Origin: Polytrichum commune
Lineage: Eukaryota > Streptophyta > Polytrichopsida > Polytrichales > Polytrichaceae
Direction of reading: 5' to 3'
DNA: 64,000 nt
Assembly: GCA_950295325.1 (NCBI GenBank)
Contig: OX485803.1
Coordinates: 13,084,001 to 13,148,000, forward strand
Under the pieces are notes generated by a model. The model worked only from the letters and a program-made list of their open reading frames with translations. It was not told the DNA's origin and ran no database searches. Numbering within the stretch: position 1 is the first letter of the stretch; each line of letters starts with the position of its first letter. Shown one piece after another: positions 20,341-42,025 of this stretch. Made by a program: the position numbers and the translations under genes.

Positions 20341-20352
20341 ATAATTGTGTTC

Positions 20353-22285
20353 AAGGATAATATAATTGGCATATTGTAGTTTGCGCTTGGATCAAGATAG
20401 TGGTATTATTCGATGTAAAGTGTAGACAACCAATTTCTGGTTCTATTTGGTTGTTAGATGCCTATATTTGAATAGCATGTGGTTTGGTGTAGTGTTTACA
20501 AAATAAGAATCAATATTGTCGGCCCCATGCAATGGCTAAAATTATATGTGGAATTGGAAGTGCATGCAATAGGCCTAGATGTTAAGTTAACATTATTTGT
20601 CATTCCTTGTAATATTTTTGGGAGATTAAAGATTTATAGTGTTACAATTATTGTCAGTAACCAAGTGATTTTTCATCCAAATTTCAGTCATCCATGACAA
20701 TATTTCATCATATCACTAACAAGAGAATGTAGGACTTTGAACAATGGATGAAATCATCCATCATCAATGACAATATTTATTGACTTATTCACAAGAAGTG
20801 CCATCCAAAAAGTTACCATAGTGACATTAAGTACCATATGACACTAAATATCATGTTTAGTGTAGTTGGCACATGCGAACCCTACCCCACTAGATTCCCT
20901 CTACATTTGGGCGGGTTTGTCCTTATTAATACTAGAATATGGTAGGCAAGGGCCTACATGAAAACTCATCCTTTTATGAACTTGCAACACACGAGCTTTT
21001 GCATAGAAAAATGGAGCTAAGATTCTATTTGGTCAAAGATTACAAAATATTGATGGTTGATTCCTTTGTATAGGGGTGAAGATCTCATACACCCCATATG
21101 TTGCATATTTGAAGGGGAGAAGCCAACTTCTATTTTGCGAGGATGGATCATGGGAACATGTGAATGACTGCTCTTTGGTTCAAATTCAACCTTCAACATA
21201 CAATTGGAGATGTTGGTATTGACAACATGTCCCAACAATGTCTAGTGCTCTAACCATGTTTTAGGATTGCCAAGGTGTTTTTACAAAGTAGGTATGCACA
21301 CATTATCGTTATTTGCAAATGAGAGATGTTATTTCCATTTTAAACTCTCCCAACCCCTTCAAAATGCAACATAGAGGGGGGACAATATCAACTCTTATAT
21401 AATAAGAGAATCATTCCCCACTTGTGTCATGATTTTGAGTAATATGAAGTCATGGTTTCAAAGCTCATACAACACTTGTCCATACACCAAGATACAACCA
21501 TGTGTAGTCATTAAACCCTTAAACTCTTTGAACCGTTATTTTGTGATTTTATGGGAGGGTTTGCAATTTTGAGGCAATGATGCCACAATTGCCCACCTTC
21601 CACATGGATTTACACCCACCAACACATAGTCATAGTCCTTCATAGCAAAATTAAGATGTCATACTTAAGAGAATTACCAAAATAAAGTATCAGAGTTAAC
21701 AAAAGTCTAGTGACAAGTAACTCGACCCAATATCCGACTCTAAGACCAAACTATGCAAACGAGTCGAATCCCCAGGCCATAGTCTAAATCGCAGAGTCCA
21801 TAGTCGAGCATGTATCGGCCATAGTCTAAGTATCGGTCACAAATTCCCCTGGCCATAGTCTAAATTGGAGAGACCATAGTCTAGCATGTATGGGCCATAG
21901 TCTAAATTGGAGAGACCATAGTCTAGCATTTATGGGCCATAGTCCAAATCGGAGAGACCATAGTCTAGCATGTATGGGCCATAGTCCAAATCGGAGAGAC
22001 CATAGTATAGAATGTATGGGCCATAGTCTAAATCGGAGAGACCATAGTCTAGCATGTATGGGCCATGGTCCAAATCGGAGAGACCATAGTCTAGCATGTA
22101 TGGGCCATGGTCCAAATCGGAGAGACCATAGTCTAGCATGTATGGGCCATAGTCCAAATCGGAGAGACCATAGTCTAGCATGTATAGGCCATAGTCCAAA
22201 TCGGAGAGACCATAGTCTAGCATGTATGGGCCATAGTCACAAATTATCCCGAGCGTGACTTGTATGCGAGCGATGGGCAGAGAGC
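20353..22285 (+). repeat. Left terminal inverted repeat (about 1.93 kb)
   Basis: Matches the complement of the right end from 40636 inward nearly base for base. For example, a 73-codon frame at 21017-21238 is identical in translation to its partner at 39751-39972, and a 72-codon frame differs by one residue (Val/Met). The inner third consists of 42-bp subterminal tandem units. Similarity continues to TATGCGAGCG near 22275 and then fades. Confidence 0.9.
21846..22240. repeat. Subterminal 42-bp tandem array, left
   Basis: About nine copies of a 42-bp unit containing GAGAGACCATAGTCTAGCAT followed by GTATGGGCCATAGTCCAAAT. Two CCATAGTC words recur per unit. As 42 is divisible by three and few stops occur, the array is open on both strands and produces spurious 14-residue repeat proteins. 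Subterminal arrays of this sort are candidate transposase binding sites. Confidence 0.85.
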
Positions 22286-23126
22286 GGAGAGCGGAGAATT
22301 GGAGAGCGGAGAGCGGAAAATGAAAAACACAATCCAAATATAGGATATTTATGCTAGGCATTTCAGAATATTCTGTGAATATTTCTTTTTTTGGCCAAGG
22401 GTTGAGACCTATAACCGTGGACCCATGGGGTTTAAAAATTGATACATTCCTATTTTTTTCCTATTTTTTCCTATTACCGTGCTATCACTTTCCAGTAATA
22501 TTGGTTGATTTAAACAATTTTTTTTACGTGTATGATTTACGATATGTGTTACCAGTAGCTTAGGCACTCTTTTGCCTAATAATTAATTAAAGTGAAAAAA
22601 ATGGTTAGGCAATTTGAAAAATAATATCTCAAAGTTGGGCAGTTTTCAATTATAATTAAATATAAGTTAGGCATTCATCCAGTTTTCTAACTGGTTAGGG
22701 TTACTTTCAAAATGGATGGTTACCTTAATCACTTGCATTAGTCACCTTAAGCAGACTTATTGTTGTGTGATGTAGTTTTATCGTGTATGAAATGGTTGTG
22801 GTATGTAGGGAAGAGATTTATGAGTTATACTTGAATTTATGTAAGTTTAGGCAGTTTCATAATTTAATTTAATTTAGTTGTTTTTGGGCAAATATAATCA
22901 AGAATTTCCAGAAAATTTATGCAGTCTTGTAAATAATTATTTTCTGCCTAAGCTGCTAGTAACATGCGGTAGTCATGCATAGTCTACATAGTCTGAATGA
23001 CAAAACCCTTTTTATTGAAAAAGACAATATGAATATTGTATTGCTGACTCAATACATGTAATGACAATGGAATTTTGAGTGGCCACCGTCCATTGAAAAG
23101 AATCTAGGTTGTTTGTAGGTTGCATC
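22286..23126. other. Transposon interior, non-coding
   Basis: AT-rich spacer between the left inverted repeat and the transposase stop. It begins with several GAGAGCGGA repeats (22285-22315). No coding sequence is visible. It would contain the transposase 3' untranslated region. Confidence 0.6.
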
Positions 23127-26100
23127 CTAGTTTTTAGCCAAATGGTGAGTCAAGAGTCCGCTTTCTAGGACTAGCTTGACCTCGTTGAAGCTAAAGGTAG
23201 GCGCGTGAATGAAAAGGTCGGCCTCGGGATCACGGTGGCAAACCTTCAAAAGGATGAAGTACACATGCTTGCAATAAGAGAATTGGGTCCGAGCTCGGAA
23301 CTTAGTCATCGTCTTCTTGAATGCAGGGCAAGTGCAACCCACGAAAGAGCTGATGGTGACCTGGTACTGTGTGATGGCAGGAGAAACACCCGAATCCAGC
23401 CCGATGATGCAACCATGTCCTGGATGAGGTATCATAGTGATGGAACGGATGCAAGCTTTCAGAGAGTCGGAGGAGGCCATGGAGAGTCGCTGAGCGGGAT
23501 TTGGGCGAATGGCAGTGCGTTTGACCATCTTGCCGTCTCTCTTGCCAGGGTAGCGGTCTGCTTTTGCAGGAATGGGCACCGCGCTCAGATTTGCAGGTGG
23601 CGGGGCAGAAGAGAACAAGCGTCTTGGAGAGACCGGCTTCCTAAGCGGGAGTTGGAATCCGGCCGCTTCAAGGGCAAGAATTTTGGTAGGCTTGAGGTTT
23701 GTGCCTAGCTTCACCGGCCAAACGTCTGGAATCGGCGGCATTTCCTGGTCTGCTGAGTGCTTAGCAACCCATTTGCGCCTTGTGCCCTTCATGCACCGGT
23801 CAATGTCATCGGAGCAGAAGAAGAATTATGTCCTCTCTGATAAAATCCTGCGTATATTAGTCCAAACTCCGGTGTATGTAGGTGCGGCGGTCAAATTGGC
23901 GCCCCTCACAATTCTCTCCGTACACTTCTTCTTCGTGACAGCTCTCTGGGCCCAACAGCACTTCGCCGAGGTCTTGGGAAGTCTTGATATGTGCCACTCC
24001 TTGACGTTAACCTTTGTCTCTTCGACAACATTGACATGACGGATCCCCCCGTCGTTCGGCGGGGACGCAGGGATGCTCTCAAGCTCAGGCTCATGATGAA
24101 TTTCTTGGACGTCCATATCATCTTCAATATCTTCAAGAATGATGGGCATCTGCATAGGACGAGCCCTCACAGCACGTCCTGAACCTCTTGGATGTGAGAA
24201 GTTTACCTTGTCAGGCCGATGAGACTCCTTTTCAGCTCGAAGAGGTAGATCTGCCTTCCGCTTCGTGGACCCGAATACCTCTTCTCCAGCCATGCGAGGA
24301 ACACGGGTACAAAATTCTTCTGCTCCAGGCATGTCCAGCATGGGGTCTTCAAGCACTAAATGATTACCTGTTTGCTTCGCCCTGCGCTCTGCCATCCTTA
24401 GTTTGAGCTCTTTCTTTGTAAGGCCTGTTTCGCCGACGTCACCTTTCAGGAACTGGTAGTAATTGACAACCTGTAAGAAACCTCTAACGAAGTCGTCAAC
24501 TGTAGCAACGTAGAGTTCACCGCCACTGTTTCCAGACGCTTGAAGCCACTTGTTGTGTATTGTTTCAGCTAGATTACATGAAGGCATTTCTGCTAGTTCT
24601 TCTTCTGAAAATTTATGCGAGTGCATAGTGGAAGTAGTTACAGATTAATGAAGAGTTGTTTCAGATTAGAATACTGTGAAAAGAAGGAAAAAAATATGAA
24701 ATGTATTGGAAAAACATACCCGGTCATGAAGCCTCCCCATTGGCGATAACGGTAGTGCCAGAATGCAAGCCAAAGCTCTAGTTTGTTTAAGGCCTTCTCT
24801 GTCACTGCCCTGGCGGATACCCACCATGCACGTAGCCCGTGGTACATACTCTCCGCTTCGTCCATGGTCCTCGCCGTCCTATACTGGTGGCACATCTTCT
24901 TGTGCTGCTCCCAGAGTTCTTCGGGAATGTACTTCTCGGTATACTTAACCATAGACTGGGTCTAGTGAAACTGACAGGTTCTCTCGCGGTCGTCCATGCG
25001 GTCCTCCTTCTTCCCGTTGCCATATATGACCCGAACTGCATTCCAGTTGGTATGGGCGCTATCAGCCATGAAACCCTTGAAGTTGGGCTTAACAACGCCA
25101 TTTCTCTCCATGACAGCATTGAGATTTTTCCAGAAAACGATCTGGGCATCAGAGTCCTCAGATTGCATGTCACAACTTGCAATGGTCATGACACGACAAT
25201 ATGTGGAGTCATACACGTGGCATGCCATTGTGGTCCATTGTCTTACACGTTTGACATGGTCGAACATCATCCAGACATTCTCCAGGTCTTCCCCGGGCTG
25301 CATACGCTTCACCAAATCTATCCCACTACCAGGCCCGACTTCCGACATCTTGAAGACAAAAACCTTGTCAAGATCAGCCCCTTGACCTGGAAATTTGTTC
25401 TCCTGAACAAAGGCCCATAAACTGATTCCACGGAGTTTGGTGATAGAGTCCATGACACCATACCTTTTGAGGAAACGGAAGCTCATGACCTTGTTGCGGA
25501 TGTTTGGAGAAGCCATGTTCTTGCATCGGTCAAAGATAGGAACAAGTTCCTCTAGAGTGAGCTTCTTTGGCGGCGCGTCATCGGATTGAAGAAGATAGTT
25601 GCCAATTATAACTTTGCTAGCCTCCAGCACCACTGCACTCTTGGTAGCCTGGGGAGTTTTCTCGATTTGTTCTTCAATTAGGCCAGTGATCTCAGCCTTA
25701 GTGTCTTTGTAGTCGCCCACCTTGACTGGGTGATCGTGAGTTCCTAGGTGGATACACACTTTTGTATGGTTGATTTTGCCAGCAACATAATAAATCTTAG
25801 CTCCACATGTAGCAATACATGCCGGGGGTTCTTTACATACCTTGCAAACAAGAGTGGACTCAGTTGGTGGTGTTTGATCCACTACAAAGGCTTGCAGGGT
25901 ACAACCTTCAAACTCTGTCTCGTTGACTTGGAAAATACGAGAACGGCGGATCAGATATTCGCACTCCTTGTTGTTGCAACACAGGTATCCAACGCAGGCG
26001 GAAGAACGGAAGGACAAACCAAAGTCGTCTGTGATGTTGGTGGTGATGGTGGTGATGGTCTTCGTCCACACATGGCCGTCGTAACGCTTGTCCATTCCCT

Positions 26101-26943
26101 GCATTGACTTGGCCTGTGACCATGCGGCCGTGTGACCAGCGGGTGGCAACTCAAATATGACGGCACCATCGAACACAACAGGAAGGTACTCTACCCTTTT
26201 GTGTCTAATCACCGAGTAGTCTATTTTTTTTAGAATATTTTTTTTCCAGGCATTCCGGCGAGTTGTTTAAGTAATGGTAATATGCTAACAGTGTCTTGCG
26301 AAAAAGGATATACTTTAGGAGCGTTCCCACTAACTATGACCTTAGGCGGGGCCTTTGTGGGACTGCACTCTTCATAAAAAGAAAGTGTTATTATAGACTG
26401 AAATGTAACGTTTTCTACAATTGGCGTATCGAGACCGGGCTCGAGCTTGACCTTCACATCACATGGCAGAGGAGTTTGAATGGTGCAGGTAGAGGAAGAA
26501 CGAGGAGTGAGGATCTCAGTAGACGCAGCCATCTGAGAATCAGTGAGGCCATACACACGGTAACGACCTGGATGAAGACTCCAAAACAAGTTATTGTTCT
26601 CATCTCGCTGCGATACCCGACCAAGGGTGTGTGTAAGCTTTGACGTGACAACGTCAAAAACATCCTCGTCAACAATAATAGTGTCCTCTCTGAAGCCGAA
26701 CCGAAGACTCAGACGTTGTGCCGTAACGATTGCTAGACCGTCCTCTTCCATCCGAAAGGTAAGTGGGACTCTCACTCCATCTACATAGAGGACAGCCAAC
26801 CCCAACTCTCCGATAGCAGGAATATAAACCATGATGATGGAAATGAGCCCTTGGGGGAAGATGGAAATATGGAAGAGGTTTCTCAACATTGTGGGATACC
26901 TATTTATTAGAAATGCTTTGCCAACGACAACAATGGTGGACAT
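23127..26943 (-). pseudogene. MULE-type transposase (WRKY/GCM1 finger, DDE, SWIM)
   Basis: Read from the ATG at 26943. An N-terminal segment (to about 26230) is followed, after a frame change or small intron near 26230-26310 beside A8 runs, by a Cys/His cluster (CVGYLCCNNKECEYL..CIHLGTHDHPV). This fits the WRKY-GCM1 zinc fingers known from MULE transposases. Then comes the catalytic region: WTTMACHVYDSTY, FKGFMADSAHTNWNAVR (Asp), RTCQFH, and FWHYRYRQWGGFM. The C-terminal region has PSCNLAETIHNKWLQ and a SWIM finger (CTCPAFKK..YCKHVYFIL). Two stops fall in otherwise continuous frame: TAG at 24962-24964, where Trp is expected after CQFH, and TAA at 23826-23828 before FFFCSDDIDRC. A donor at 24719 (ACCGG|GTATGT) has no acceptor in matching phase near 24605. 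The product would be the nuclear transposase of this element, now dead. Confidence 0.85.
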
Positions 26944-27346
26944 GACCCAAATGACGGATGAACTCTGAACAAAAGAAACACGAATATCTTAAAATTTGTA
27001 ACGCTGTCACGATATACAAAATAAGAGCGTCCAAGTCATGGTAGACATTCTAAATGACAAGCAACTAAATATGGTTAGTTGGCGCCGACTTAAAGCTTGA
27101 TTCATTATTAGGTCTAGGGATAGCCCTGACGTTTGAGGATAGGAATAGATCGAATGACGAAATCCCAATTGGCCATTAAATATATGAATGTCCCTCGTGG
27201 AAACAATTGTACCCGATCGAGTGATACTCATCTCCTTTCACTTAGTATCATAAGTTATGAATTTTCGAGTGGCGTAAGATGCGTTCGGTTGACGGGAGGG
27301 TTTGAGAGTGTTGGAGTAGACATGCTCAGGAAGGGTGACACATGAC
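26944..27346. promoter_or_regulatory. Divergent intergenic region of the transposon
   Basis: About 400 bp separate the start of the leftward transposase from the start of the rightward ParB-methyltransferase gene. Both promoters must lie here or in non-coding leader exons. I see no clear TATA box or operator; the assignment rests on layout only. Confidence 0.4.
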
Positions 27347-27715
27347 ATGCAGGCCCCTATCAAGAGGAGAAAGAAGAGAGGGAAGTTATATTTCAGTAGC
27401 ACTAAGGCGTTGAAGTCGAGTAGGATGGGGAGGAAGAAGGTGGCGCCTGAAAGATATGAGACAAGTGGGATTAACAAAGTTTTAGATTTTGAGGACACCG
27501 AGGAGAACGCAACATTATCGATGGTAGATGAATGTGAGGGTCCCTCAACTTCCCGGGGCCGAGGATCTCAGTATCGAGAAGCATCAAAGGATGCGGGGAC
27601 ACAGTCCAATCCCGCATCCAATCCCGCATCGCAGGAGCAGAGTGGGGAGGAAGAGCTTGAAAAGACGAGCTTGATGGAACCGGAAGGTGGGTTTCGGAAA
27701 CCCTAAACTTGACAC

Positions 27716-30312
27716 TTGTGGTAGAAGTTAGCCCCCAACTAGTCAAGGTAGGTTTAGATATGGTTGCCTCGGGAGCTTTGTTTTTGGTTAAGGGTCTGAA
27801 ATTTTGTGAGAGGAAAAGCAAGGTAGGTTCAGATATGGCTGCCTCTGGGGCTTTGTGTTTGGTTGATGGGCTGAAATTTTCATAGTGGAAAGTCAAGGTA
27901 GGTACAGATATGGCCAACATTGGTGCAGGTAAGAGGTACTAGAATGAGCCTCCGAGGAGGTGCCTGTAACGGCACCCCCCTTGGGGGCCTTTTTTTTACT
28001 TGAAATTCTAAAAATTTAGAGAGAGCAAAGTGACCTAGGTGTAGATATGGGTTGCCTCGGGGCTTTGTTTTTGGTTGGGGGCCTGAAATTTTGAGAGAGG
28101 GAAGTGAAGGTAGGTTTAGATATGGCTGCCTGGGGGGCTTTGTTTTTGGTTGAGGGGCTGAAATTCTGAGAGAGGAGAGGCAAGTTAGGTTCAGATATGG
28201 CCAACATTGGTGCAGGTAAGATGTATTAGAATGAGCCTCTGAGGAGGTGCCTGTAATGGCACCCCCCTCGGGGGCTTTTTTTTTGCTTGAAATTCTAAAA
28301 TTTTGAAAGAGCAAAGTGAGCTAGTTTTAGATATGGACAGCCTTGGGGGCTTTGTTTTTGGTTGAGGGCCTGAAATTTAGCTATTGGATAGTCAAGGTAG
28401 GTACACATATGACCAACATTGGTGCAGGTTAGAGGTATTAGAATGAGCCTCCGAGGAGGTGCCTGTAACGGCACCCCCCTCGGGGGCTTTTTTTTTGCTT
28501 GAAATTTTGAAATTTTGATAGAGCAAAGTGAGCTAGTTTTAGATATGAGCAACCTTGGCGGCTTTGTTTTTGGTTGAGGGCATGAAATTTAGCTATTGGA
28601 TAGTCAAGGTAGGTACACATATGGCCAACATTGGTGCAGGTAAGAGGTACTAGAATGAGCCTCCGAAGAGGTGCCTGTAACGGCACCTCCCTTGGGGGCC
28701 TTTTTTTTACTTGAAATTCTAAAAATTTAGAGAGAGCAAAGTGACCTAGGTGTAGATATGGGTTGCCTCGGGGCTTTGTTTTTGGTTGGGGGCCTGAAAT
28801 TTTGAGAGAGGGAAGTGAAGGTAGGTTTAGATATGGCTGCCTGGGGGGCTTTGTTTTTGGTTGAGGGGCTAAAATTCTGAGAGAGGAGAGGCAAGTTAGG
28901 TTCAGATATGGCCAACATTGGTGCAGGTAAGATGTATTAGAATGAGCCTCAGAGGAGGTGCCTGTAACGGCACCCCCCTCGAGGGCTTTTTTTTGCTTGA
29001 AATTCTAAAATTTTGAAAGAGCAAAGTGAGCTAGTTTTAGATATGGGCAGCCTTGGGGGCTTTGTTTTTGGTTGAGGGCCTGAAATTTAGCTATTGGATA
29101 GTCAAGGTAGGTACACATATGACCAACATTGGTGCAGGTTAGAGGTACTAGAATGAGCCTCCGAGGAGGTGCCTGTAACGGCACCCCCCTCGGGGGCTTT
29201 TTTTTTGCTTGAAATTTTGAAATTTTGATAGAGCAAAGTGAGCTAGTTTTAGATATGAGCAACCTTGGCGGCTTTGTTTTTGGTTGAGGGCATGAAATTT
29301 AGCTATTGGATAGTCAAGGTAGGTACACATATGGCCAACATTGGTGCAGGTTAGAGGTACTAGAATGAGCCTCCGAGGAGGTGCCTGTAACGGCACCCCC
29401 CTCGGGGGCTTTTTTTTGCTTGAAATTCTAAAATTTTGAGAGAGCAAAGTGAGGTAGTTTTAGATATGGGCAGCCTTGGGGGCTTTGTTTTTGGTTGAGG
29501 GCATGAAATTTAGCTATTGGATAGTCAAGGTAGGTACACATATGGCCAACATTGGTGAAGGTTAGAGTACTAGAATGAGCCTCCGAGGAGGTGCCTGTAA
29601 CGGCACCCCCCTCGGGGGCTTTTTTTTTGCTTGAAATTCTAAAATTTTGAGAGAACAAAGTGAGGTAGTTTTAGATATGGGCGGCCTTGGGGGCTTTGTT
29701 TTTGGTTGAGGGCCTGAAATTTAGCTATTGGATAGTCAAGGTAGGTACACATATGGCCAACATTGGTGAAGGTTAGAGTACTAGAATGAGCCTCCGAGGA
29801 GGTGCCTGTAACGGCACCCCCCTCGGGGGCTTTTTTTTTGCTTGAAATTCTAAAATTTTGAGAGAGCAAAGTGAGGTAGTTTTAGATATGATCAGCCTTG
29901 GGGGCTTTGTTTTTGGTTGAGGGCATGAAATTTAGCTATTGGATAGTCAAGGTAGGTACACATATGGCCAACATTGGTGCAGGTTAGAGTACTAGAATGA
30001 GCCTCCGAGGAGGTGCCTGTAACGGCACCCCCCTCGGGGGCTTTTTTTTTGCTTGAAATTCTAAAATTTTGAGAGAGCAAAGTGAGGTAGTTTTAGATAT
30101 GAGCAGCCTTGGGGGCTTTGTTTTTGGTTGAGGGCCTGAAATTTTGAGAAAAGAAAGTCAAGGTAGGTTTAGATATGGCCAACATTGGTGAAGGTAAAAG
30201 GTTTTAGATTCGGCCTGTGAGGAGGTGCCGGTGACGGCACCCCCCTCGGGGGCTTTTTTTTTGCTTGAAATTTTGAAATTTTGATAGTGGAAGGTCAAGG
30301 TAGGTTATATCT
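27716..30312 (+). repeat. Minisatellite array filling intron 1 of cargo gene
   Basis: About eleven copies of a unit of roughly 210 bp (some about 287 bp through an extra 75-bp subunit). Each copy combines GGCTTTGTTTTTGGTTGAGG, TAGGTACACATATGGCCAAC or a related word, ATTGGTGCAGGT, and a hairpin block GGAGGTGCCTGTAACGGCAC followed by CCCCCTCGGGGGC and eight or nine T. The complementary strand is open in places and gives repetitive spurious peptides. The array stops just before the acceptor of exon 2. Confidence 0.9.
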
Positions 30313-31254
30313 TTTGTAGTGTACTACGATGCTGAGGACTTTGCTTTTATGCAGTGCGCCTTACGGATGACGAGTTGAAGCTGAAGCTCCACGACTTAGC
30401 GATTGAGGAGAGCGTTCCAATTGTTTCTCGTCTAGAGAAGCTAAAATGGCAACCAAAACAGAAGGGTCGTCTCCTTATCCCGCTATGCCGCATGATGTTT
30501 CTTTCTGTGGTGAGACCGTACCTCAAGAACAACGTATTTCAACTCGCAACTCATTTTATGTCTGATGGCTACATGGAAGGGAATGGTTTCTTTTATGTGG
30601 CATTTGAGGACAACCATGGGCACACCAATGATGTGACCCCCACTGTGGTGGCCAAGTGGTCATTTGAGTGGAAGGAGGTGAATGAAGAATTCGAGAAGAA
30701 ACTTCTTGTAGATGACGATTTGAAGATTTTTTCCAATAAGATGTTCATGGTTTGGGATGGGAACCATCGGCTGCAGGCATGGATGCCTATCATTGAGCAG
30801 TTTCATACTCATGATATCAATTGGCATTTCTGTGTTGAGGGTGTAATTCTTGACCCAAGGGGAAACATACCATCTGTGATAGCCGCTCTGCACGAAGTGA
30901 ATTGCTAAGATCCTCAAACTTGCCATGAATGTTTGAAGTATTCATTCATCATTCTAATATATATTTTGGCTTTGCAGGAAGAATAAAAAATCTCATGTCA
31001 CCACGAACCTAGTACACAAGTTATATCGCATCTAGAATCTTACCCCACAGCCACTGTCGTACTTTGAGGGTTTGGTATCTCCAACTGTTTTGGAGGCTGC
31101 AAGGAAGAAACAGTCTGGAAAAAATCGCACATGGTTCACCCTCACCGTTGAAGGTCTCAATGCGGTCCTTTACCACGTAAAGTCAAGCTCAAATGTTATC
31201 GTGACATTTAAATTATGAATAAGACATTCATGTAACTGATTGAATTAATTGTTT

Positions 31255-34186
31255 GACCTATAGCTAGGTTTAGATTGGGTTGCTTCGGGGGCTTTGTTTT
31301 TTAGTTGAGGGCCTGAAATTTTGAGAGTGCAAAGTCAAGGTAGATTTAGATATTGCCAATATTGGTGCAGGTTATATGTATTAGATTGAGCCTGTAACGG
31401 CACCCCCCTCGGGGGGTTTTTTTTCTTCAAATTCTGAAATTTTTAGAAAGCAAATTCAGCTAGTTTTAGGTATGGGCTGCCTGGGGGCTTTGTTTTTTGT
31501 TGGGGGCCTGAAATTTTGAGAGAGGGAAGTGAAGGTAGGTTTAGATATGGCTGCCTGGGGGGCTTTGTTTTTGGTTGAAGGGCTGAAATTCTGAGAGAGG
31601 AGAGGCAAGTTAGGTTCAGATATGGCCAACATTGGTGCAGGTAAGATGTATGAGAATGAGCCTCTGAGGAGGTGCCTGTAACGGCACCCCCCTCGGGGGC
31701 CTTTTTTTTGCTTGAAATTCTGAAAATTTAGAGCAAAGTGACCTAGGTGTAGATATGGGTTGCCTCGGGGCTTTGTTTTTGGTTGGGGGCCTGAAATTTT
31801 GAGAGAGGGAAGTGAAGGTAGGTTTAGATATGGCTGCCTGGGGGGCTTTGTTTTTGGTTGAGGGGCTGAAAATCTGAGAGAGGACAGCCAAGTTAGGTTC
31901 AGATATGGCCAACATTGGTACAGGTAAGAGGTACTAGAATGAGCCTCCGAGGAGGTGCCTGTAACGGCACCCCCCTCGGGGGTTTTTTTTTGCTTGAAAT
32001 TCTGAGAATTTTGAGAGAGCAAAATGAGCTAGGTTTAGATTGGGTTGCCTCGGGAGCTTTTTTTTTGGTTGAGGGACAGAAATTTTAATAGTGGAATGCC
32101 AGCTAGGTTTAGATATGGCTGCCTCGGGGCTTTGTTTTTGTTGAGGGGCTGAGATTTTGAGAGTGGAAAGTCAAGGTAAGTTTAGATATGACCAACATTG
32201 GTGCAGGTAGGATGTACTAGAATGAGCCTCCGAGGAGGTGCCTGTAACGGCACCCCCCTCGGGGGTTTTTTTTTTGCTTGAAATTCTGAAAATTTTGAGA
32301 GAGCAAAGTGAGCTACTTTTAGATTGGGTTGCCTCGGGAGCTTTGTTTTTCGTTGAGGGCCTGAAATTTTGAGAAAAGAATGTCAGCTAGGTTTAGATAT
32401 GGCTGCCTCAGGGGCTTTGTTTTTGTTGAGGGGCTGAAATTTTGATAGTGCAATGTCAGCTAGTTTTAGATATGGGCAGTCTCGGGAGCTTTGTTTTGGT
32501 TGAGGGGCAGAAATTTTGATAGTGGAATGTCACCTAGGTTTAGATATGGCTGCCTCGGGGGCTTTGTTTTTGTTGAGGGGCTGAAATGTTGAGCGTGGAA
32601 AGTCAATGTAAGTTTAGATATGGCCAACATTGATGCAGGTAAGATGTATTAGATTGAGCCTCCGAGGAGGTGCCTGTAACGGCACCCCCCTCGGTGGCTT
32701 TTTCTTTCTTTCTTGAAATTATGAAATTTTCATAAAGCAAAGTTAGCTAGTTTTATATATGGGCTGCCTGGGGGGCTTTGTTTTTGGTAGAGGGCCTGAA
32801 ATCTTGATAGTTGAATGTCAGCTAGTTTTAGATATGGGCAGCCTTGGGGGCTTTGTTTAAGGTTGAGGGCCTGAAATTTAGCTATTGGAAATTCAAGGTA
32901 GGTACACATATGGCCTACATTGGTGAAGGTTAGAGGTACTAGAATGAGCCTCCGAGGAGGTGCCTGTAACGGCACCCCCCTCGGGGGCTTTTTTTTTGCT
33001 TGAAATTTTGAATTTTAGAGAGAGCAATATGAGCTAGGTTTAAATTGGGTTGCCTCGGGAGCTTTGTTTTTTGTTGAGGGCCTGAAATTTTGAGAAAAGA
33101 ATGTCAGCTAGGTTTAGATATGGCTGCCTCGGGGGCTTTGTTTTTGTTGAGGGGCTGAAATTTTGATAGTGGAATGTCACCTAGGTTTAGATATGGGCAG
33201 CCTTGGGAGCTTTGTTTTTGGTTGAGGGGCTGAAAATTTGATAGTGGAATGTCAAGGTAAGTGTAGATATGGCCAACATTGGTGCAGGTAAGATGTATTA
33301 GATTGAGCCTCCAAGGAGGTGCCTGTAACGGCACCCCCCTCGGTGGCTTTTTTTTTGCTTGAAATTATGAAATTTTTATAAAGCAAAGTCAGCTAGTTTT
33401 AGATATGGGCTGCCTGGGGGGCTTTGTTTTTGGTAGAGGGCCTGAAATTTTGATAGTTGAATGTCAGCTAGTTTTAGATATGGGCAGCCTTGGGGGCTTT
33501 GTTTAAGGTTGAGGGCCTGAAATTTAGCTCTTGGAAAGTCAAGGTAGGTACACATATTGCCAACATTGGTGAAGGTTAGAGGTACTAGAATGAGCCTCCG
33601 AGGAGGTGCCTATAACGGCACCCCCCTCGGGGGCTTTTTTTTTGCTTGAAATTCTGAAATTTTAGAGAGAGCAATGTGAGCTAGGTTTAGATTGGGTTGC
33701 CTCGGGAGCTTTGTTTTTCGTTGAGGGCCTGAAATTTTGAGAAAAGAATGTCAGCTAGGTTTAGATATGGCTGCCTCGGGGGCTTTGTTTTTGTTGAGGG
33801 GCTGAAATTTTGATAGTGGAATGTCACCTAGGTTTAGATATGGGCAGCCTCGGGAGCTTTGTTTTTGGTTGAGGGGCTGAAATTTTAATAGTGGAATGTC
33901 AAGGTAAGTGTAGATATGGCGAACATTGGTGCAGGTAGGATGTATTAGATTGAGCCTCCAAGGAGGTGCCTGTAACGGCACCCCCCTCGGGGGCTTTTTT
34001 TTTGCTTGAAATTCTGAAATTTTTATAAATCAAAGTCAGTTAGTTTTAGATATGGGCTGCCTGGGGGGCTTTGTTTTTTGTTGAGGGCCTGAAATTTAGC
34101 TATTGGAAAGTAAAGGTAGGTTTAGATATGGCCAACATTGGTGCAGGTAATAGGTCTTAGATTGAGCCTCCGAGGAGGTGGTTGTA
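31255..34186 (+). repeat. Minisatellite array filling intron 3 of cargo gene
   Basis: About nine to ten further copies of the same unit family as in intron 1, with more extra 70-75-bp subunits (TAGATATGGCTGCCTCGGGG type), so spacing between hairpin blocks ranges from about 275 to 430 bp. The last copy (34165-34190) has lost the right arm of the hairpin. Exon 4 begins 30 bp later. Confidence 0.9.
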
Positions 34187-37085
34187 ACTGTTTGACGTAA
34201 TTGTTTGAACTATAGCAAGAGATTGCAAAAGCTGCACATGCTGCTGAAGACAAATACAAGATGAACAACCCAGATTCTAGCAATTGGACGGATCGTAATG
34301 CAGAGGAATGGGTTAGGAAAGCTGTGAAGAAGGTCGAGGATAAGCTTGTCGCGGAGCTCAGGAAGCATTTGCCTGTTGCGGATCCCAAGCTAACTCCTGG
34401 TTTTCTAGAGGAAGTAAAGGCTCACTATGAGAAGTTCGATGTACCTGAGATGCTCCAGGAAAAGCTATACATGTTTGCCACTTCAGCGATGCCAGCAAGG
34501 ATGATGGTTAAGTGGCTCCAGAGGTGGAACTCCTCTGCGGCAATTCGGGATGCGCATCGTTTTCCCAAGGCTAGCTTCGCCGACTCCAAGTTTCCGGAAT
34601 GGCTGAATCGGGTAACATGGTGGGCGCAGATTAGTATTCATCTTGAATTTCATGTTGTCATTTGACTGACCCCTAATGAGCTATGACAAGGATGTCAACA
34701 TGTAAGACAACATCTAATTTCTTGAAAATGTTTCGTGTGCATGGTCTCAGATTGCAGTGGAGGCTGACGAGCTCTTTTCGGGTGTTCTCACAGATCTTGG
34801 GGAAATTATTGACTACAATCCCTATGGCGAAGATCCTATCTTGACTATCTTCGATTACGTGGAGGCCATGAGGTGTTAGCTCTAGGAGATTGTCTTCTTC
34901 ATTGAGTTGGGTGGAGATAACGGCGCTCACAAGAACAACCCCCCGGATAAACAACCTTTCTTCGTTCAAGCTGTCCGCAGGGTCCTTTACATGTACTTTC
35001 GATATGTTCTCCTGCCCATGAAGGTCATCTCTAAGGTACCCGCTTTCTTCCCTAACTACCTGGACTTCGAAAGACCTGATTCCATGTTCACTCCTGCAAT
35101 TATAAAAAACATGGGATCCAATTCACTTTCAACAGTGCGGGTGGTACTTGGACTGTCCGGTCAAGAAGCCTCTTCCCTTTGACATCGCACTCAGGAACTC
35201 CATCCAACCTCTCCTACCTTTTCCCGCTGCATCAGTTCCAGGCTCAGAGTCTCCCACACCCCCCAAGGGTGGCTCCTCAAGAAGCAAGACTGCTACTAAA
35301 GGGAGTAGGCCTCGGGGATCCAAACGGAAGGCTGCTGAGTTGGTTGAGGAGCCAATGGAAGAAGATATTCGTGTAACAGGTAGTGATTTCGGTGTTCCAC
35401 CTGTTGAATTTGCAGACCCTATCAGCTCCCATCCTCCACGGACACCTGATCCTAAGCGTATTCACCTGGGAGCTGTTGGTCAAGTCAAACCCATCACATT
35501 CGTCCCACCTGCGGTTAAGGCAATGTCGTCATTCCAAGCATGCACCTCCTCCTCTGCTTCTCCTCAGGTTCTCATACTCAATGACTCATTCTACATGATG
35601 TTGGATTATAAGGCGAAGCACAACAAATTCCCTTCAACGTACGATGACATGGTTGCTTTTCTAAGTGAGGTACATATCCAGCGTCATTCCAATTCATTTC
35701 TGCTAGCATGCCCCTATTTACGAATTCATTCTATACTTAACGCCCTGGTTTTTTTGAAACAAAGGTTGGAGTATCCAGAGAATTCTTCTTCTCAGGCAAG
35801 GTGTTCCAGAAGGCTGCAGTGGACCTCATTATTGCAGAGTATCCCGATGGTTTGCATGTCCCATGAGTTTCCGAATTTCCAGGGCAAATTCCACATTGGA
35901 ATAAGCAGGTTCAGAACTTTATCAAGTTCACCATTGGCTTTTGTCAAGGCTATCTTCACGACGACGGGGCACTCCTCCTATTCTATCCTGACAGCGTGCA
36001 AATCTAGAAGGAGGTTTTGAGCTTTCTCTACAACAACAATCTGGAGGTCAAGGAGGAATGGACCATCGTGAATTCTCTCCACCTCACTCACCCTGTGCAT
36101 AACTCCAAACGGGTCAGTAATTTTGGCCATTTTCTGCTCTTCAAGTTCTCCTTCCTTCATGACTTGAATCACATTGCTAACAATTCGGGGCCTATGGTTG
36201 ATGTCCAGACTCTTAAATTCAAAGCGATCGTGCTGGTTCGGTCTTTCTCCACACTTTTGGTTAGGCAACCCAAGGAGTTTGTCATTTCTTCTAGTGACGA
36301 ATTTGAAGATGTTGACCTTGCACGTGATGACGTGCTTTTCAACATTGTCACCACTGATACTGCACTCAAGCGCAACGACAGTGACACATTCTAGAGGGGC
36401 CCTAAGGAGAAGGCAGTGTCCCTGCTCCAGCTTTTAATCAGTGGCCTTAGCCCTCCAGGGGGGATTATATGTGACCTCACTGTTAGAACTGGTATGAATA
36501 ATTTGTTCAACATTCCCATGTCCGTAGACTTAGGCAATTCAATCACATTTGACTAATTCATTTGTTTCAGTCTTTGTAGGTGCCTCGGTTCTTGCAGCAC
36601 AATCTCCTAATAGGGCAATAGTGGCACTTGAGGGAGATAAAGAATTGTACGAAGAACTCCTGCAGCCACTTCAGGTCGCAACGTCGGAGTCTCAGGGGGT
36701 CGATCCAACCCACTTTGTAGACCTTGACGACGACGACGATGCCCTCCCTCAACAGGGTGCAGTTAATCTATGTGAGTAAGTCTTTTGTCATCCTAAACTT
36801 ATTTTTCGAATATATTGCATTTAATTGGAAGGATTCTAACAATCGTAATTTGTCCTTTGTTGGTGCAGTCTGATGGTTCAAGGCCGACGCTCGGTAGACT
36901 ACGGCTCACCTCCTAGTTCTAGCATGCGACTTCCTTGTTATGCAGAGGATATGGCAGTAGCTTATGCCAAAGACTCCTCCCATAGTAGTAGTGCCTCTTC
37001 TAGTCCACGTCAAAGATACGATCCAAGAGTACTCAAATTCATAGATCAGAGTTCTTCGGAGAGTGAGGATGAGTTTATTCCCTGA

Positions 37086-38229
37086 ACTCCATTTTGTATT
37101 GGATTTTATTATTCTATGATCCGCACTCCTTTGCATTTGAATCTAGTAGTTTAAAGATGATGACAAAAGATCATTAAATACGAGGCAAAACAATTCCTAA
37201 ATAAACGAATTTGAATAGAATCATAGTATAAAAACTTAAATTATAGTTGTGGAATGGATAAACAATGCTCAACAATTAAATCATGTAAAAATCAAATGTT
37301 AACCCTCCATAAATGTTTACCCTCGGGAGTGGATCAAAGTTAACATTATAAAGGTGTTAACAGTTAACAATTATAAAATTACTTTTTTGAGCAATATACA
37401 AATCTTAACATGTTCTAAATATAAGCAATTGTGAACAGTACTTGTGAGAGAATACAATTCAGTAAATTACAAACCCAATCAAAATTTTATTCAATATCAA
37501 GTTTACAAATCATGGGTGAAGTATGAATCAATGGTTCTATGGTGAGATTCATGTGCATGCACAACTTGCAAATATTTCTCAATGTGCACCAACAAACCAC
37601 ATACTTGGACACCTACATGAACGTGTTTCCATGTACCTTCTAATGGAACTTCTCATGTGCCTCCATTCTTGAACTTCCATCACTAGAACTATTAGTAGCC
37701 AATCTTAGTCTTTCTAAAAGACTAGTTATGGTTGTATTTCATTCGTTAACATTTATAGAGTCAAATTTACAAAGAAGGGAGTAGCATTTTGTTAACAATT
37801 AACACGTTTAACATTTATAGTGTGCAATATGTGGGGAGTAGAAGAAAGTTAACATTTAGAAATGGTTAACACTTATAGGTGTAACATTTATAGAGGGTGG
37901 ATTGTATGTGGAGAATTTTTTTTCACAAACCTCCTTCGTGTTTCCTTCAAATAGTAAATTTTATTTAATTTACAGTAATGTGTACTATAGTACATAAGTT
38001 TGGATATTGTCTTGGTGACGTCATACTGATGTAAGCCCTAATTTTGTATTTTATTAAAATATTTCTATGTTTCCTAAATCTATAAACATTATGAATGGGG
38101 AAATGTTGGCCTATTTCCACGGTAATAGAGTCCCTAACTCTTAAAAGTTTCTAAAAATAGTTCGATGTTTTTCCCTCATTTATGCGGTTATAGGTGCATT
38201 TTTTCTTTCAATTCATGTCTCAAATTGAG
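37086..38229. other. Transposon interior, non-coding, AT-rich
   Basis: Very AT-rich with many GTTAAC and AACATTTATAG words. No coding region seen after the stop at 37085. It contains the MITE-like element at 37303-37897. Confidence 0.6.
37303..37897. mobile_element. MITE-like element nested in the transposon
   Basis: The left end reads CCCTCCATAAATGTTTA. The right end, on the opposite strand, reads CCCTCTATAAATGTTAC, giving a 17-bp terminal inverted repeat around about 595 bp of AT-rich non-coding DNA. The end sequence resembles that of the smaller pogo/mariner-like element at 63564-63649. A target duplication is not evident. Confidence 0.5.
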
Positions 38230-38256
38230 TTCTCCGCTCGCATACTAACTTTCCCC

Positions 38257-38832
38257 AAATTCTCCCGGCCCTAGTCCGAGTGTCAAGTCTGGTAGAGCAA
38301 GGCCATAGTCTTAGTATCCAAATGTGCTCATAAAGATAGGGGTGAGTCTTACCTTATAAACTTGCCCCTTGGCCTTCACCCGAACAGTATGGGATAAAGA
38401 TGTAAATGACCATGAACAAAAAAAAACAATTTGGCTCTGATAACAGGCACCAGAAAAACTTAGGTGCTACATCATAAATTTACTTTCCAATGCAACCGAA
38501 TCTATAACAAATTATCACTTATGTGATTACTGAAAGTCATAAAGTCACTTATGTATCAGTAATCACATAAGTGATAATTTGTTATAGATTCGGTTGCATT
38601 GGAAAGTAAATTTATGATGTAGCACCTAAGTTTTTCTGGTGCATGTTATCAGAGCCAAATTGTTTTGTTTTGTTCATGGTCATTTACATCTTTATCCCAT
38701 ATTGTTCGGGTGAACGCCAAGGGGCAAGTTTATAAGGTAAGACTCACCCCTATCTTTATGAGCACACTTGGATACTAAGACTATCGCCTTGCCCTACCAG
38801 ACTTGACACTCGGACTAGGGCTGGGAGAATTT
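38257..38832. mobile_element. 576-bp foldback element in the right TIR
   Basis: A nearly perfect inverted repeat. The left arm runs from AAATTCTCCC (38257) to CACTTATGTGATTACTGA (38534); the right arm runs from TCAGTAATCACATAAGTG (38556) to GGGAGAATTT (38832), with about 21 bp between them. Each arm contains GGTGCTACATCATAAATTTA and a TTATCAGAGCCAAATTG block that resembles the methionine-tRNA primer binding site of plant retrotransposons. It therefore may be two inverted copies of an LTR-plus-leader. Confidence 0.85.
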
Positions 38833-38835
38833 GTG

Positions 38836-39140
38836 ACTATGGCCCATACATGCTAGACTATGGTCCCTCCGATTTGGACCATGGCCCATACATGCTAGAC
38901 TATGGTCTCTCCGATTTGGACCATGGCCCATACATGCTAGACTATGGTCTCTCCGATTTGGACCATGGCCCATACATGCTAGACTATGGTCTCTCCGATT
39001 TGGACCATGGCCCATACATGCTAGACTATGGTCTCTCCAATTTAGACGATGGCCCATACATGCTAGACTATGGTCTCTCCGATTTGGACTATGGCCCATA
39101 AATGCTAGACTATGGTCTCTCCAATTTAGACTATGGCCAG
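38836..39140. repeat. Subterminal 42-bp tandem array, right
   Basis: Seven copies of the same 42-bp unit as at 21846-22240, in the opposite orientation (ATGGTCTCTCCGATTTGGAC). Individual units vary at the same positions as on the left (CGATTTGG versus CAATTTAG). The copy number differs between the two arms, so the arrays have expanded or shrunk since the arms were last identical. Confidence 0.85.
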
Positions 39141-40636
39141 GGGAATTTGTGACCGATACTTAGACTATGGCCGATACATGCTCGACTATGGACTCTGCGA
39201 TTTAGACTATGGCCTGGGGATTCGACTCGTTTGCATAGTTTGGTCTTAGAGTCGGATATTGGGTCGAGTTACTTGTCACTAGACTTTTGTTAACTCTGAT
39301 ACTTTATTTTGGTAATTCTCTTAAGTATGACATCTTAATTTTGCTATGAAGGACTATGACTATGTGTTGGTGGGTGTAAATCCATGTGGAAGGTGGGCAA
39401 TTGTGGCATCATTGCCTCAAAATTGCAAACCCTCCCATAAAATCACAAAATAACGGTTCAAAGAGTTTAAGGGTTTAATGACTACACATGGTTGTATCTT
39501 GGTGTATGGACAAGTGTTGTATGAGCTTTGAAACCATGACTTCATATTACTCAAAATCATGACACAAGTGGGGAATGATTCTCTTATTATATAAGAGTTG
39601 ATATTGTCCCCCCTCTATGTTGCATTTTGAAGGGGTTGGGAGAGTTTAAAATGGAAATAACATCTCTCATTTGCAAATAACGATAATGTGTGCATACCTA
39701 CTTTGTAAAAACACCTTGGCAATCCTAAAACATGGTTAGAGCACTAGACATTGTTGGGACATGTTGTCAATACCAACATCTCCAATTGTATGTTGAAGGT
39801 TGAATTTGAACCAAAGAGCAGTCATTCACATGTTCCCATGATCCATCCTCGCAAAATAGAAGTTGGCTTCTCCCCTTCAAATATGCAACATATGGGGTGT
39901 ATGAGATCTTCACCCCTATACAAAGGAATCAACCATCAATATTTTGTAATCTTTGACCAAATAGAATCTTAGCTCCATTTTTCTATGCAAAAGCTCGTGT
40001 GTTGCAAGTTCATAAAAGGATGAGTTTTCATGTAGGCCCTTGCCTACCATATTCTAGTATTAATAAGGACAAACCCGCCCAAATGTAGAGGGAATCTAGT
40101 GGGGTAGGGTTCGCATGTGCCAACTACACTAAACATGATATTTAGTGTCATATGGTACTTAATGTCACTATGGTAACTTTTTGGATGGCACTTCTTGTGA
40201 ATAAGTCAATAAATATTGTCATTGATGATGGATGATTTCATCCATTGTTCAAAGTCCTACATTCTCTTGTTAGTGATATGATGAAATATTGTCATGGATG
40301 ACTGAAATTTGGATGAAAAATCATTTGGTTACTGACAATAATTGTAACACTATAAATCTTTAATCTCCCAAAAATATTACAAGGAATGACAAATAATGTT
40401 AACTTAACATCTAGGCCTATTGCATGCACTTCCAATTCCACATATAATTTTAGCCATTGCATGGGGCCGACAATATTGATTCTTATTTTGTAAACACTAC
40501 ACCAAACCACATGCTATTCAAATATAGGCATCTAACAACCAAATAGAACCAGAAATTGGTTGTCTACACTTTACATCGAATAATACCACTATCTTGACCC
40601 AAGCGCAAACTACAATATGCCAATTATATTATCCTT

Positions 40637-42025
40637 AAACCAAGTAAGAATGCTCACTCAATGTTTTTGCATTCATGCTAAACGCCTTGAACCCTAAACC
40701 CTAAACCCTAAACCCATAGTATTATGTTGTTCTTCTCAAAATCTAGTGAAATTTCTTCCAAGCCTTGCACTTCGAGGTTATCTTATTGATACCGGCTTAG
40801 GATGACCTTAAGTGACAGACGAGAGTTGTCCTCCAAGAATTAAAGAGATTAACATGCAAATTCATCCAAACATAACATGAATGTCATTATTGTTCACTAT
40901 CTTCAGTATGACACGTGTGAGAAACACAAAAAGGTAGTGTTATCTAGGTGTCGTCTTCTCATTCATATGACAAGTGGCGTAAAGTTGTCATATTATTGAG
41001 GGAATACGAAAATATGAGCTTAAACATATATATACAACAAGTTTAGGCAGTATAGATGGTATGAAATAAGAGCTAATAACTCCAAACAAGTACAAATATT
41101 TTCAAGAACTCTTGACAAAGGAGTCCAAATAGTGTAGTTGGATTGACATCCCCCCGCTGCCTCACTTTATCATTAAAACTCTCAAATGAGAGGCAAGCAA
41201 TTGGACCTCGTGGTTGGACACATACACCTTCATTTTCATTGGGTTATAGCCATGCATATATTGATTGGAGACAAGGAACGGTTTTTGGATTAAATTTGGA
41301 CATAGTTCCAAGATTTGAACTTTTTGGTTAACTCATAATTGAATTCTATGGGCGGACCCCCAATATGCTAGCAATATACTTACTTTTTATGATGATACAT
41401 GAGTTGACAATAGATATTTGAATAATATAATATTGGAATATGATTATATTATGCCAAAAGGATATACGTTGAATAGAGATTGGACTATATCCTTAAAAAT
41501 AGAGATCCATTATATTTTAAGGATGAATTCCCCCCCCCATAATATGCTCCCAAACCTAGTGTTGAGTAATACCTTGGCCTTGGAGCTGAGGCATGAACAC
41601 GGGGCTGCAGGACAAGGCGGTCCGCTCCTTTTTTTTTAAGTGGGCAGGTCCCCGAAGCCCGTCCGGCACGATGTCCTATGTTGACCTGCAGTGGCCGGTC
41701 TTGCAAATGCACTTCACTTGCAATGGCCGGTTACCGCTGTCAAAGTGTACCTGGTCCTTTCTCCAGGCTGCAGCAACGAGCGCCAAGTTGCGGCAGCAAG
41801 CGCTAGGCCGCAAAAGCCAGGCAGCCGTGCATATTGTATTCCATACTCGAGTCTAAGGACTCGGTAGTGAAATGGACTTTTGGTTGTTTTGGTGTTCGGG
41901 TTCGGGTTGCGGGTGGGTTAGTGGGTTGGTGGGTTGTCGCTTTTGAGGGAGGATATTGCCAGTGCCAGGGATGGCACTGCGAATTATCCTTTCCTTGGTT
42001 GAAAAACCGTCTGGGACGTTTTCAG
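40637..42025. other. Unassigned sequence between transposon and copia integrase
   Basis: The missing copia RT region would be expected here, yet no RT motif is visible on the minus strand. The part nearest the integrase (41560-42025) is GC-rich and may be the diverged or broken continuation of the copia frame. The middle is AT-rich and unrelated. Confidence 0.45.
40690..40715 (+). repeat. Interstitial telomere-type repeat (CCCTAAA)3
   Basis: Three full CCCTAAA units plus a partial fourth, only 54 bp outside the right end of the 20-kb transposon. CCCTAAA is the standard plant telomere unit. Confidence 0.85.

Follow-up and report, generated by a model that had tools for sequence, protein, structure and literature searches.

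A family of giant two-gene transposons in Polytrichum commune with a ParB-methyltransferase-like accessory gene, its exchange between elements and candidate recognition palindromes in its introns

To our knowledge, self-encoded anti-silencing of transposons is known experimentally from few systems. In plants, VANDAL transposons combine a transposase with an accessory protein, VANC, whose target motifs are arranged in tandem and vary from one related element to another (relevant passages of PMC5735166 and PMC10398659). Accessory genes of the ParB-methylase kind have already been published in giant transposons of algae, namely in Sola1-1_Ec32 of Ectocarpus: according to the passages of PMC12477816 on this element, it is a giant DNA transposon encoding a ParB-like and a methyltransferase domain in one protein, on the strand opposite the transposase (the same passages cite Iyer 2011 and Petroll 2025). 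Fungal DNA transposons with a TET/JBP dioxygenase likewise carry a gene of an epigenetic enzyme type, although both the enzyme and the host are different (PMC12730594, in excerpt). In the present work, we describe a large transposon family of Polytrichum commune, made up of giant DNA elements with two genes and represented by a member located in a 64,000-nucleotide stretch of DNA (the window; C1:13,084,001-13,148,000 of the 408 Mb assembly G000, to which all genome-wide counts refer). The family pairs a transposase gene with a gene, designated here gene B, whose product has a ParB-like N-terminal half and a methyltransferase-like C-terminal half. The window copy, W, is a decayed, dead member of this family; the other genomic copies are designated A, B, D, F, G and H, and copy A, at C6:33.0 Mb, served as the reference for W.

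Comparison with the described systems revealed both shared and distinct features. The family resembles Sola1-1_Ec32 in its size class, in the two domains joined in one protein and in the opposite strands of the two genes, a likeness judged from the published description; it differs in its plant host, in the transposase, in the loss of motif IV in all copies read, in the exchange of gene B and in the presence of palindrome arrays. With VANDAL elements it shares a plant host, a transposase accompanied by an accessory protein, and tandem-repeated noncoding motifs that differ between related elements; gene B is likened to VANC by layout, its activity being putative, and the word "palindrome" is absent from the available text of PMC5735166. 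The order of domains, ParB-like and then methyltransferase, is the same as in the phage ParB-N6/N4 fusions (for example, those of Vibrio phage 1.213.O and Morganella phage Mecenats66); however, the three phage proteins read retain DPPY, and the plant ParB-like part has no profile similarity to them. In the open full-text literature (preprints outside), ParB together with Mutator-like elements (MULEs) or eukaryotic transposons was found in PMC12477816, the other matches being papers on a bacterial plasmid (PMC9412624) and on an archaeal subject (PMC6563490); no second paper on a ParB-methylase transposon was found among the matches listed, and a term search of the giant-transposon review PMC6431247, as far as its text was available, returned no ParB. 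Three features were not found in print, namely the exchange of gene B, its altered motif IV and the palindromes in its introns; we regard the exchange and the intronic arrays as the more surprising part.

The transposase and gene B form one unit. For the pairing test, 101 scored transposase matches (1861 first-look candidates) were compared with the gene B exons listed from three protein queries, that is, the best 150 of 151 matches for the ParB-like exon, 150 of 150 for the motif IV exon and 89 of 158 for a third gene B type, with matches of the distant type left out; chance expectation was calculated for random positions and strands. The 151 matches of the ParB-like query (exon 2) came from the best 150 scored of 1182 first-look candidates, and the first-look candidates for gene B exons numbered roughly 1054-1357. 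Among the matches listed, a gene B exon lies within 40 kb of 87 of the 101 transposases (5.7 by chance) and is divergent from the transposase in 84 (1.5 by chance), and for 73 of them (0.6 by chance) a divergent exon is found within 15 kb. Three transposases are linked to gene B in a non-divergent arrangement, and 14 have no listed partner within 40 kb, a count among the matches listed that does not by itself prove absence. The linkage within 40 kb depends on the types included: the listed ParB-like exons alone account for 40 transposases (37 divergent), the ParB-like and methyltransferase exons together for 57 (52 divergent), and inclusion of the third type brings the numbers to those given above. 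Four loci show the D-type pairing, their two exons being separated by 10.8-12.3 kb. Copies F and G are 98.9-99.4% identical across their two longest shared blocks, and both have the transposase together with a gene B of one and the same type; therefore, the pair was copied as a unit. The first-pass annotation had named as adverse the outcome that the two genes always lie apart in related elements; this outcome did not occur.

The two genes of a unit have different histories. Six copies were compared, F and G being nearly the same. The core exons of the transposase (408 codons) differ little among A, D and G (94-95% identity; synonymous divergence, dS, 0.26-0.35), whereas in the same copies the ParB-like exons share 40-41% identity (157-165 codons) and the motif IV exons 33-45% (91-96 codons), and the dS of both is either saturated or higher than 2. 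Copy B is 64% identical to A in the transposase and 55-59% in the gene B exons, and its gene B is nearer to that of A than the gene B of D or G. These comparisons show that element lineages have exchanged gene B. Fast divergence of the protein would not explain such values and was ruled out, because synonymous sites diverge with time largely regardless of selection on the protein, and the dS of gene B far exceeds that of the linked transposase. Within a type, gene B is constrained: between W and A, the ratio of nonsynonymous to synonymous divergence (dN/dS) is 0.127 for the ParB-like exon, 0.078 for the motif IV exon and 0.193 for the transposase, W being dead. Selection maintains gene B as an accessory gene of the element.

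In its C-terminal half, the product of gene B has a permuted methyltransferase fold of the N6A/N4C kind, a METHYLTRANSFERASE fold that lacks the usual catalytic motif. The spliced translations of copies A and D matched N6_N4_Mtase (PF01555) with 26.8 bits (6e-6) and 38.7 bits (1.4e-9), respectively, both above the cut-off of 26.7, and that of copy B reached 17.4 bits (0.0045), which is under it; all these matches span the later part of the fold only, namely motifs X, I and II. A profile of A, B and D matched the CcrM-type N6-adenine methyltransferases, which have a similarly permuted motif order, at 2.5e-6 across CcrM profile positions 27-232, and the NCBIfam CcrM model gave 30 bits, far below its cut-off of 830. 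Copy D also matched the methyltransferase of a Lactococcus phage, the alignment covering 96% of the query (3e-4). In the alignment to three phage enzymes, the plant EYPDG or DIPEN sits on the phage DPPYN, and motif I (DLTAGTG, DLTASTG or DWKAGTG) and the acidic motif II (ALEGD, ALESD or AFEDD) follow motif IV in the permuted order. The motif I for binding of S-adenosylmethionine (SAM) is retained in most gene B types read and is weakened in one of them (DVNAGVG). Thus, the permuted methyltransferase motifs reported in the first-pass annotation are present in the sequence and are borne out by the N6_N4_Mtase and CcrM profiles.

The catalytic tetrapeptide [DNS]PP[YFW], in contrast, was found in none of the 39 gene B copies (a 20-locus set, the window, A, B, D, L150, L154, a further 12 and G; L151, having no frame of 120 aa, lies outside this count). 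In contrast to CcrM, it is replaced, mostly by [DE]xP[DE]: position 1 is D or E in 37 of 39 copies (the exceptions are L026 with Q and L028 with V), and position 4 is D or E in 36 (the exceptions are L035 with Q, L150 with Y and L166 with A). The change looks conserved and not decayed, because it is also present in copies 24-31% identical to the distant-type query. Since the tetrapeptide is replaced in 39/39 copies, ordinary DNA methylation by gene B is doubtful, and the plain self-encoded DNA methylase suggested earlier for this element is not supported. A separate observation concerns the small contigs C10 (47 kb), C12 (61 kb) and C23, which carry ParB and N6_N4_Mtase genes; the two small-contig loci read (L152 and L153) have a canonical DPPY and a bacterial or phage look, and these contigs are probably assembly contamination.

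The introns of gene B contain tandem arrays in which the repeated dyads are GC-rich and differ by gene B type. In W, the dyad is GGTGCC-N6-GGCACC, with 19 sites, 11 of them in intron 1 (27959..30241, plus strand) and 8 in intron 3 (31671..33982, plus strand); copy A has 17 sites of the GGTGCCGTTAACGGCACC type, copy D has 10 sites of the GGGTGCCGTAAACGACACCC type, and TGTCGGATCCGACA occurs at 21 sites in F and 8 in G. All these copies have an array in intron 1, upstream of the ParB-like exon, and a second intron of W and A holds sites as well. The placing in intron 1 leans on the match to exon 1, which is good for W and A (scores of 606 for W itself and 477 for A), weaker for F (185) and weak for D (90), these four being the copies compared for exon 1. 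Near-palindromes exceed those in shuffled sequences in A (41 vs 1-7), D (18 vs 1-7), F (27 vs 4-5) and G (12 vs 2-6). In the genome, CTGTCGGATCCGACAG has 374 exact copies and GTGCCGTTAACGGCAC has 268, and the reversed-pattern control gave 0 for each. Clusters were analyzed for the first 50 sites listed of each palindrome, all on C1. Among these sites, each of the five A-type clusters has an A-type gene B exon at most 6 kb away and no G-type exon inside 400 kb; of the six G-type clusters, four have a G-type exon at most 10 kb away, and none has an A-type exon inside 60 kb. The W core has 57 copies in the genome, and for 46 of them a listed A/W-type gene B exon is no more than 10 kb away. A further palindrome was observed in copy A (L009, L011), where 2324-2742 and 20727-20928 contain the perfect palindrome TTTGGGTCGATCGACCCAAA in 6 exact copies; it flanks the gene pair and is distinct from the intronic palindrome.

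The best explanation of these features, although a tentative one, is that gene B encodes a VANC-like factor for self-recognition and anti-silencing of the transposon, which would bind the palindromes in its own introns. In the proposed mechanism, the ParB-like half binds the candidate sites as a dimer; the methyltransferase-like half of the bound protein may then serve as a SAM-binding module or as a module for interaction with chromatin or proteins, and not as an ordinary methylase. The bound protein would keep the promoter region of its own element from silencing, in the manner of the VANC system of VANDAL elements, and exchange of gene B together with its sites would switch the recognition specificity in one step. 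A more specific version, which is possible but less probable, considers gene B as a ParB-parS-like self-recognition cassette in a eukaryotic transposon: the protein would load on its own intronic palindromes, [DE]xP[DE] would be a rebuilt catalytic site, making the protein either a SAM-binding reader or an enzyme with new chemistry, and the cassette would be swapped whole to change the self-specificity and escape silencing.

The first rival explanation is that gene B encodes an active N4C/N6A DNA methyltransferase, whose motif IV is unusual and which marks the DNA of its own element, as proposed for the algal elements. We consider this unlikely. Retention of the permuted fold and the SAM motif in several types agrees with such an activity, and the passages of PMC12477816 on these proteins suggest that they may bind and modify their own transposon. 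Moreover, a Streptococcus phage enzyme annotated as adenine-specific has DIPY at this place, and the plant copy L150 has DIPYG; however, the relatives of L150 (L154, L164 and L165) have DIPDG, and L150 is the only one of the 39 copies with an aromatic residue at position 4. The absence of [DNS]PP[YFW] from all of these copies and the weakened motif I of one type also argue against an active methylase.

Several observations weigh against a VANC-like role of gene B, and the first of them concern its N-terminal half. The [DE]GNHR box with conserved surroundings was found in 18 of 20 loci, L052 and L055 having no match to the search pattern; it is a box of the GxxR type, which we take to be a ParB signature. 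The ParB identity is a motif-level call that rests on this box and on the position ahead of the methyltransferase. No ParB match was obtained with Pfam (single exons, and 8 family members), PHROGs, NCBIfam or PDB profiles; among the 8 members, Pfam gave a contact with DUF1015 in one (E 0.19) and an MSL3_chromo-like contact in one (0.0067). A comparison by hhalign with the N-termini of 68 phage ParB proteins detected no similarity, whether the plant insertion was kept or removed, and the control comparison of the plant and phage methyltransferase halves gave 2.4e-7 over 69 columns. The single-sequence AlphaFold2 model of the ParB-like exon of the window alone was unusable (mean predicted local distance difference test score, pLDDT, 37.7) and lends no structural support to a ParB fold. 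Thus, for the ParB-like domain of the first-pass annotation the motif is seen, yet every profile test is negative; the profile searches proposed there gave a methyltransferase match and no ParB match, and the latter is the only one of the adverse outcomes named there that occurred. A viral or phage origin of gene B was considered and rejected: scans of IMG/VR with the ParB-like and methyltransferase alignments gave no relative, and a phage collection gave general methyltransferase similarity only, with one chance match (E 7) for the ParB-like part.

The remaining adverse observations concern the sites. A general palindrome scan of W gave no excess (1 vs 2-4 in shuffles), the W site being an imperfect dyad, and no excess of near-palindromes over shuffles was found in B or H. 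No array was seen in copy B, where a run of N of 5 kb occupies the position of intron 1. For two of the six G-type clusters, the closest G-type exon in the list is 18 and 39 kb away, and for 11 of the 57 W-core sites no gene B exon is listed at up to 10 kb. That site and gene types occur together is no proof of recognition, because the sites sit inside the introns of gene B and travel with the gene. Finally, a T-run, read in the sense of gene B, comes after the palindrome in W, A and D, an arrangement that also fits an RNA hairpin or terminator.

The latter observation leads to a reading of the palindromes as RNA or DNA hairpins in the introns, acting in attenuation, in splicing control or as a source of small RNA, and not as protein sites. 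The imperfect W core, with its 6-base spacer, could form such a hairpin; however, the array unit of F has no such T-run, and the commonest cores of A, F and G are perfect palindromes with no spare loop, so that we regard this reading as improbable, to about the same degree as an active methylase. We give a similarly low probability to the arrays being passive minisatellites without a role, with gene B acting otherwise, for example, as a transposition cofactor. The copy number is indeed labile, as the 21 sites of F and 8 of G occur in copies that are otherwise nearly identical, and the general scan of W is also consistent with passive repeats; on the other hand, the array units of W, A, D and F/G each hold a GC-rich dyad, and near-palindromes are above shuffles in A, D, F and G. 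That gene B is a captured passenger of the Pack-MULE style without function for the element is highly improbable and was rejected, since, although capture of gene fragments by MULEs is known (PMC6431247, in part), 84 of 101 transposases are paired with it, its dN/dS is low, and several gene B types are all divergently paired.

The structure of the window copy agrees with the two divergent split genes described in the first-pass annotation: in the alignment to copy A, the transposase is on the minus strand and gene B, head to head with it, on the plus strand. The transposase (23130..26832, minus strand) consists of the pieces 23130-24614, 24761-26050 and 26224-26832, aligned to the frames of copy A, and is disabled by 3 stops and a frame break. 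It is MULE-like by motif. Pfam detected the SWIM finger in the window exon and in the D protein with 18.5 and 17.5 bits, respectively, below the cut-off of 19.6, and the same two sequences gave no Pfam match to DDE, WRKY/GCM1 or any transposase family. The assignment to MULEs is thus a motif-level call accompanied by a sub-threshold SWIM match; the DDE and WRKY/GCM1 parts noted earlier have no profile match.

The exons of gene B were placed via copy A, with exon 1 at 27347-27703 and exons 2-9 within 30354-37082, all on the plus strand. Exon 1 (27347..27703) has a basic start, MQAPIKRRKKRG, and its match is clear in A, weaker in F and weak in D. Exon 2 (30354..30896) encodes the ParB-like region with WDGNHRLQAW and is open, with no stop, and exon 3 (30982..31173) contains 1 stop. 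Exon 4 (34216..34632) was delimited by alignment to copy A, and the later part of exon 5 (35100..35669) encodes a linker with 1 stop, its first part being unaligned in that frame. The motif IV region is encoded by exon 6 (35765..36112; 2 stops), where EYPD replaces [DNS]PP[YFW]. Exon 7 (36209..36493; 1 stop) encodes the motif X region and motif I, exon 8 (36582..36776) motif II (VALEGDKELYEE), and exon 9 (36924..37082) the C-terminal tail YAEDMAVAYA...DPRVL, similar tails being present in B and D. Motif I is DLTVRTG in the window and DLTAGTG in copy A, and we interpret the former as a decay product. In total, the aligned exons contain 5 stops (one each in exons 3, 5 and 7 and two in exon 6), in addition to the frame break of exon 5. 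Stops and frame breaks thus interrupt both genes of the window copy, in contrast to the open frames of copy A, and make it a dead one; many of its relatives, as judged from genome matches to gene B and the transposase, retain open exons. In copy A (L009), an open frame of 338 aa and of undefined kind is located past the 3' end of gene B (2908-3921).

MULEs are characterized by long terminal inverted repeats and a short (8-11 bp) target duplication. The enclosing inverted repeats of the window element are confirmed, with the left arm (20349..22154, plus strand) 99% complementary over 1806 nt to the right arm (38835..40640, minus strand), the outer end of which is unproven. Both contain a 42-bp tandem repeat, with 9.4 copies in the left arm (21851-22244) and 7.4 in the right one (38829-39138). 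The ends of the element at 20353 and 40636, given in the first-pass annotation, are not proven, because other arm copies share the region right of 40640 and neither W nor H yielded a target-site duplication. Inverted arms are present in W, B and G, the arms of G reaching the limit of the DNA taken for analysis, and are absent from A, D and F with the search that found them in W, B and G.

Several further observations were made around the arms. A foldback borders the right arm on its inner side and consists of a 278-nt inverted repeat (38256-38533 and 38556-38833), 97% complementary, with its halves 22 nt apart. Immediately beyond the right arm, an interstitial telomere-type repeat, (AACCCTA)n, occupies 40690-40715; by this type of repeat the genome is plant-like. 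The window arm sequence occurs four times on one strand at C6:37,205,484-37,319,990 (L173), with a spacing of approximately 35-41 kb, and the same locus has a shorter element bearing similar arms. The inverted arms of copy G (C1:57,395,301-57,436,300; L170-L172, L174-L177) are longer than 10 kb and 97% alike, with reverse-transcriptase-like frames recognized by eye in both, and they seem to have been homogenised by copying.

The reconstructed family suggests that a two-domain module of bacterial type has spread with a large family of plant transposons, has been exchanged between its elements, and bears candidate recognition sites of its own. It raises the questions of what role a methyltransferase fold may have without its catalytic motif, and of whether the protein and its site evolve together.

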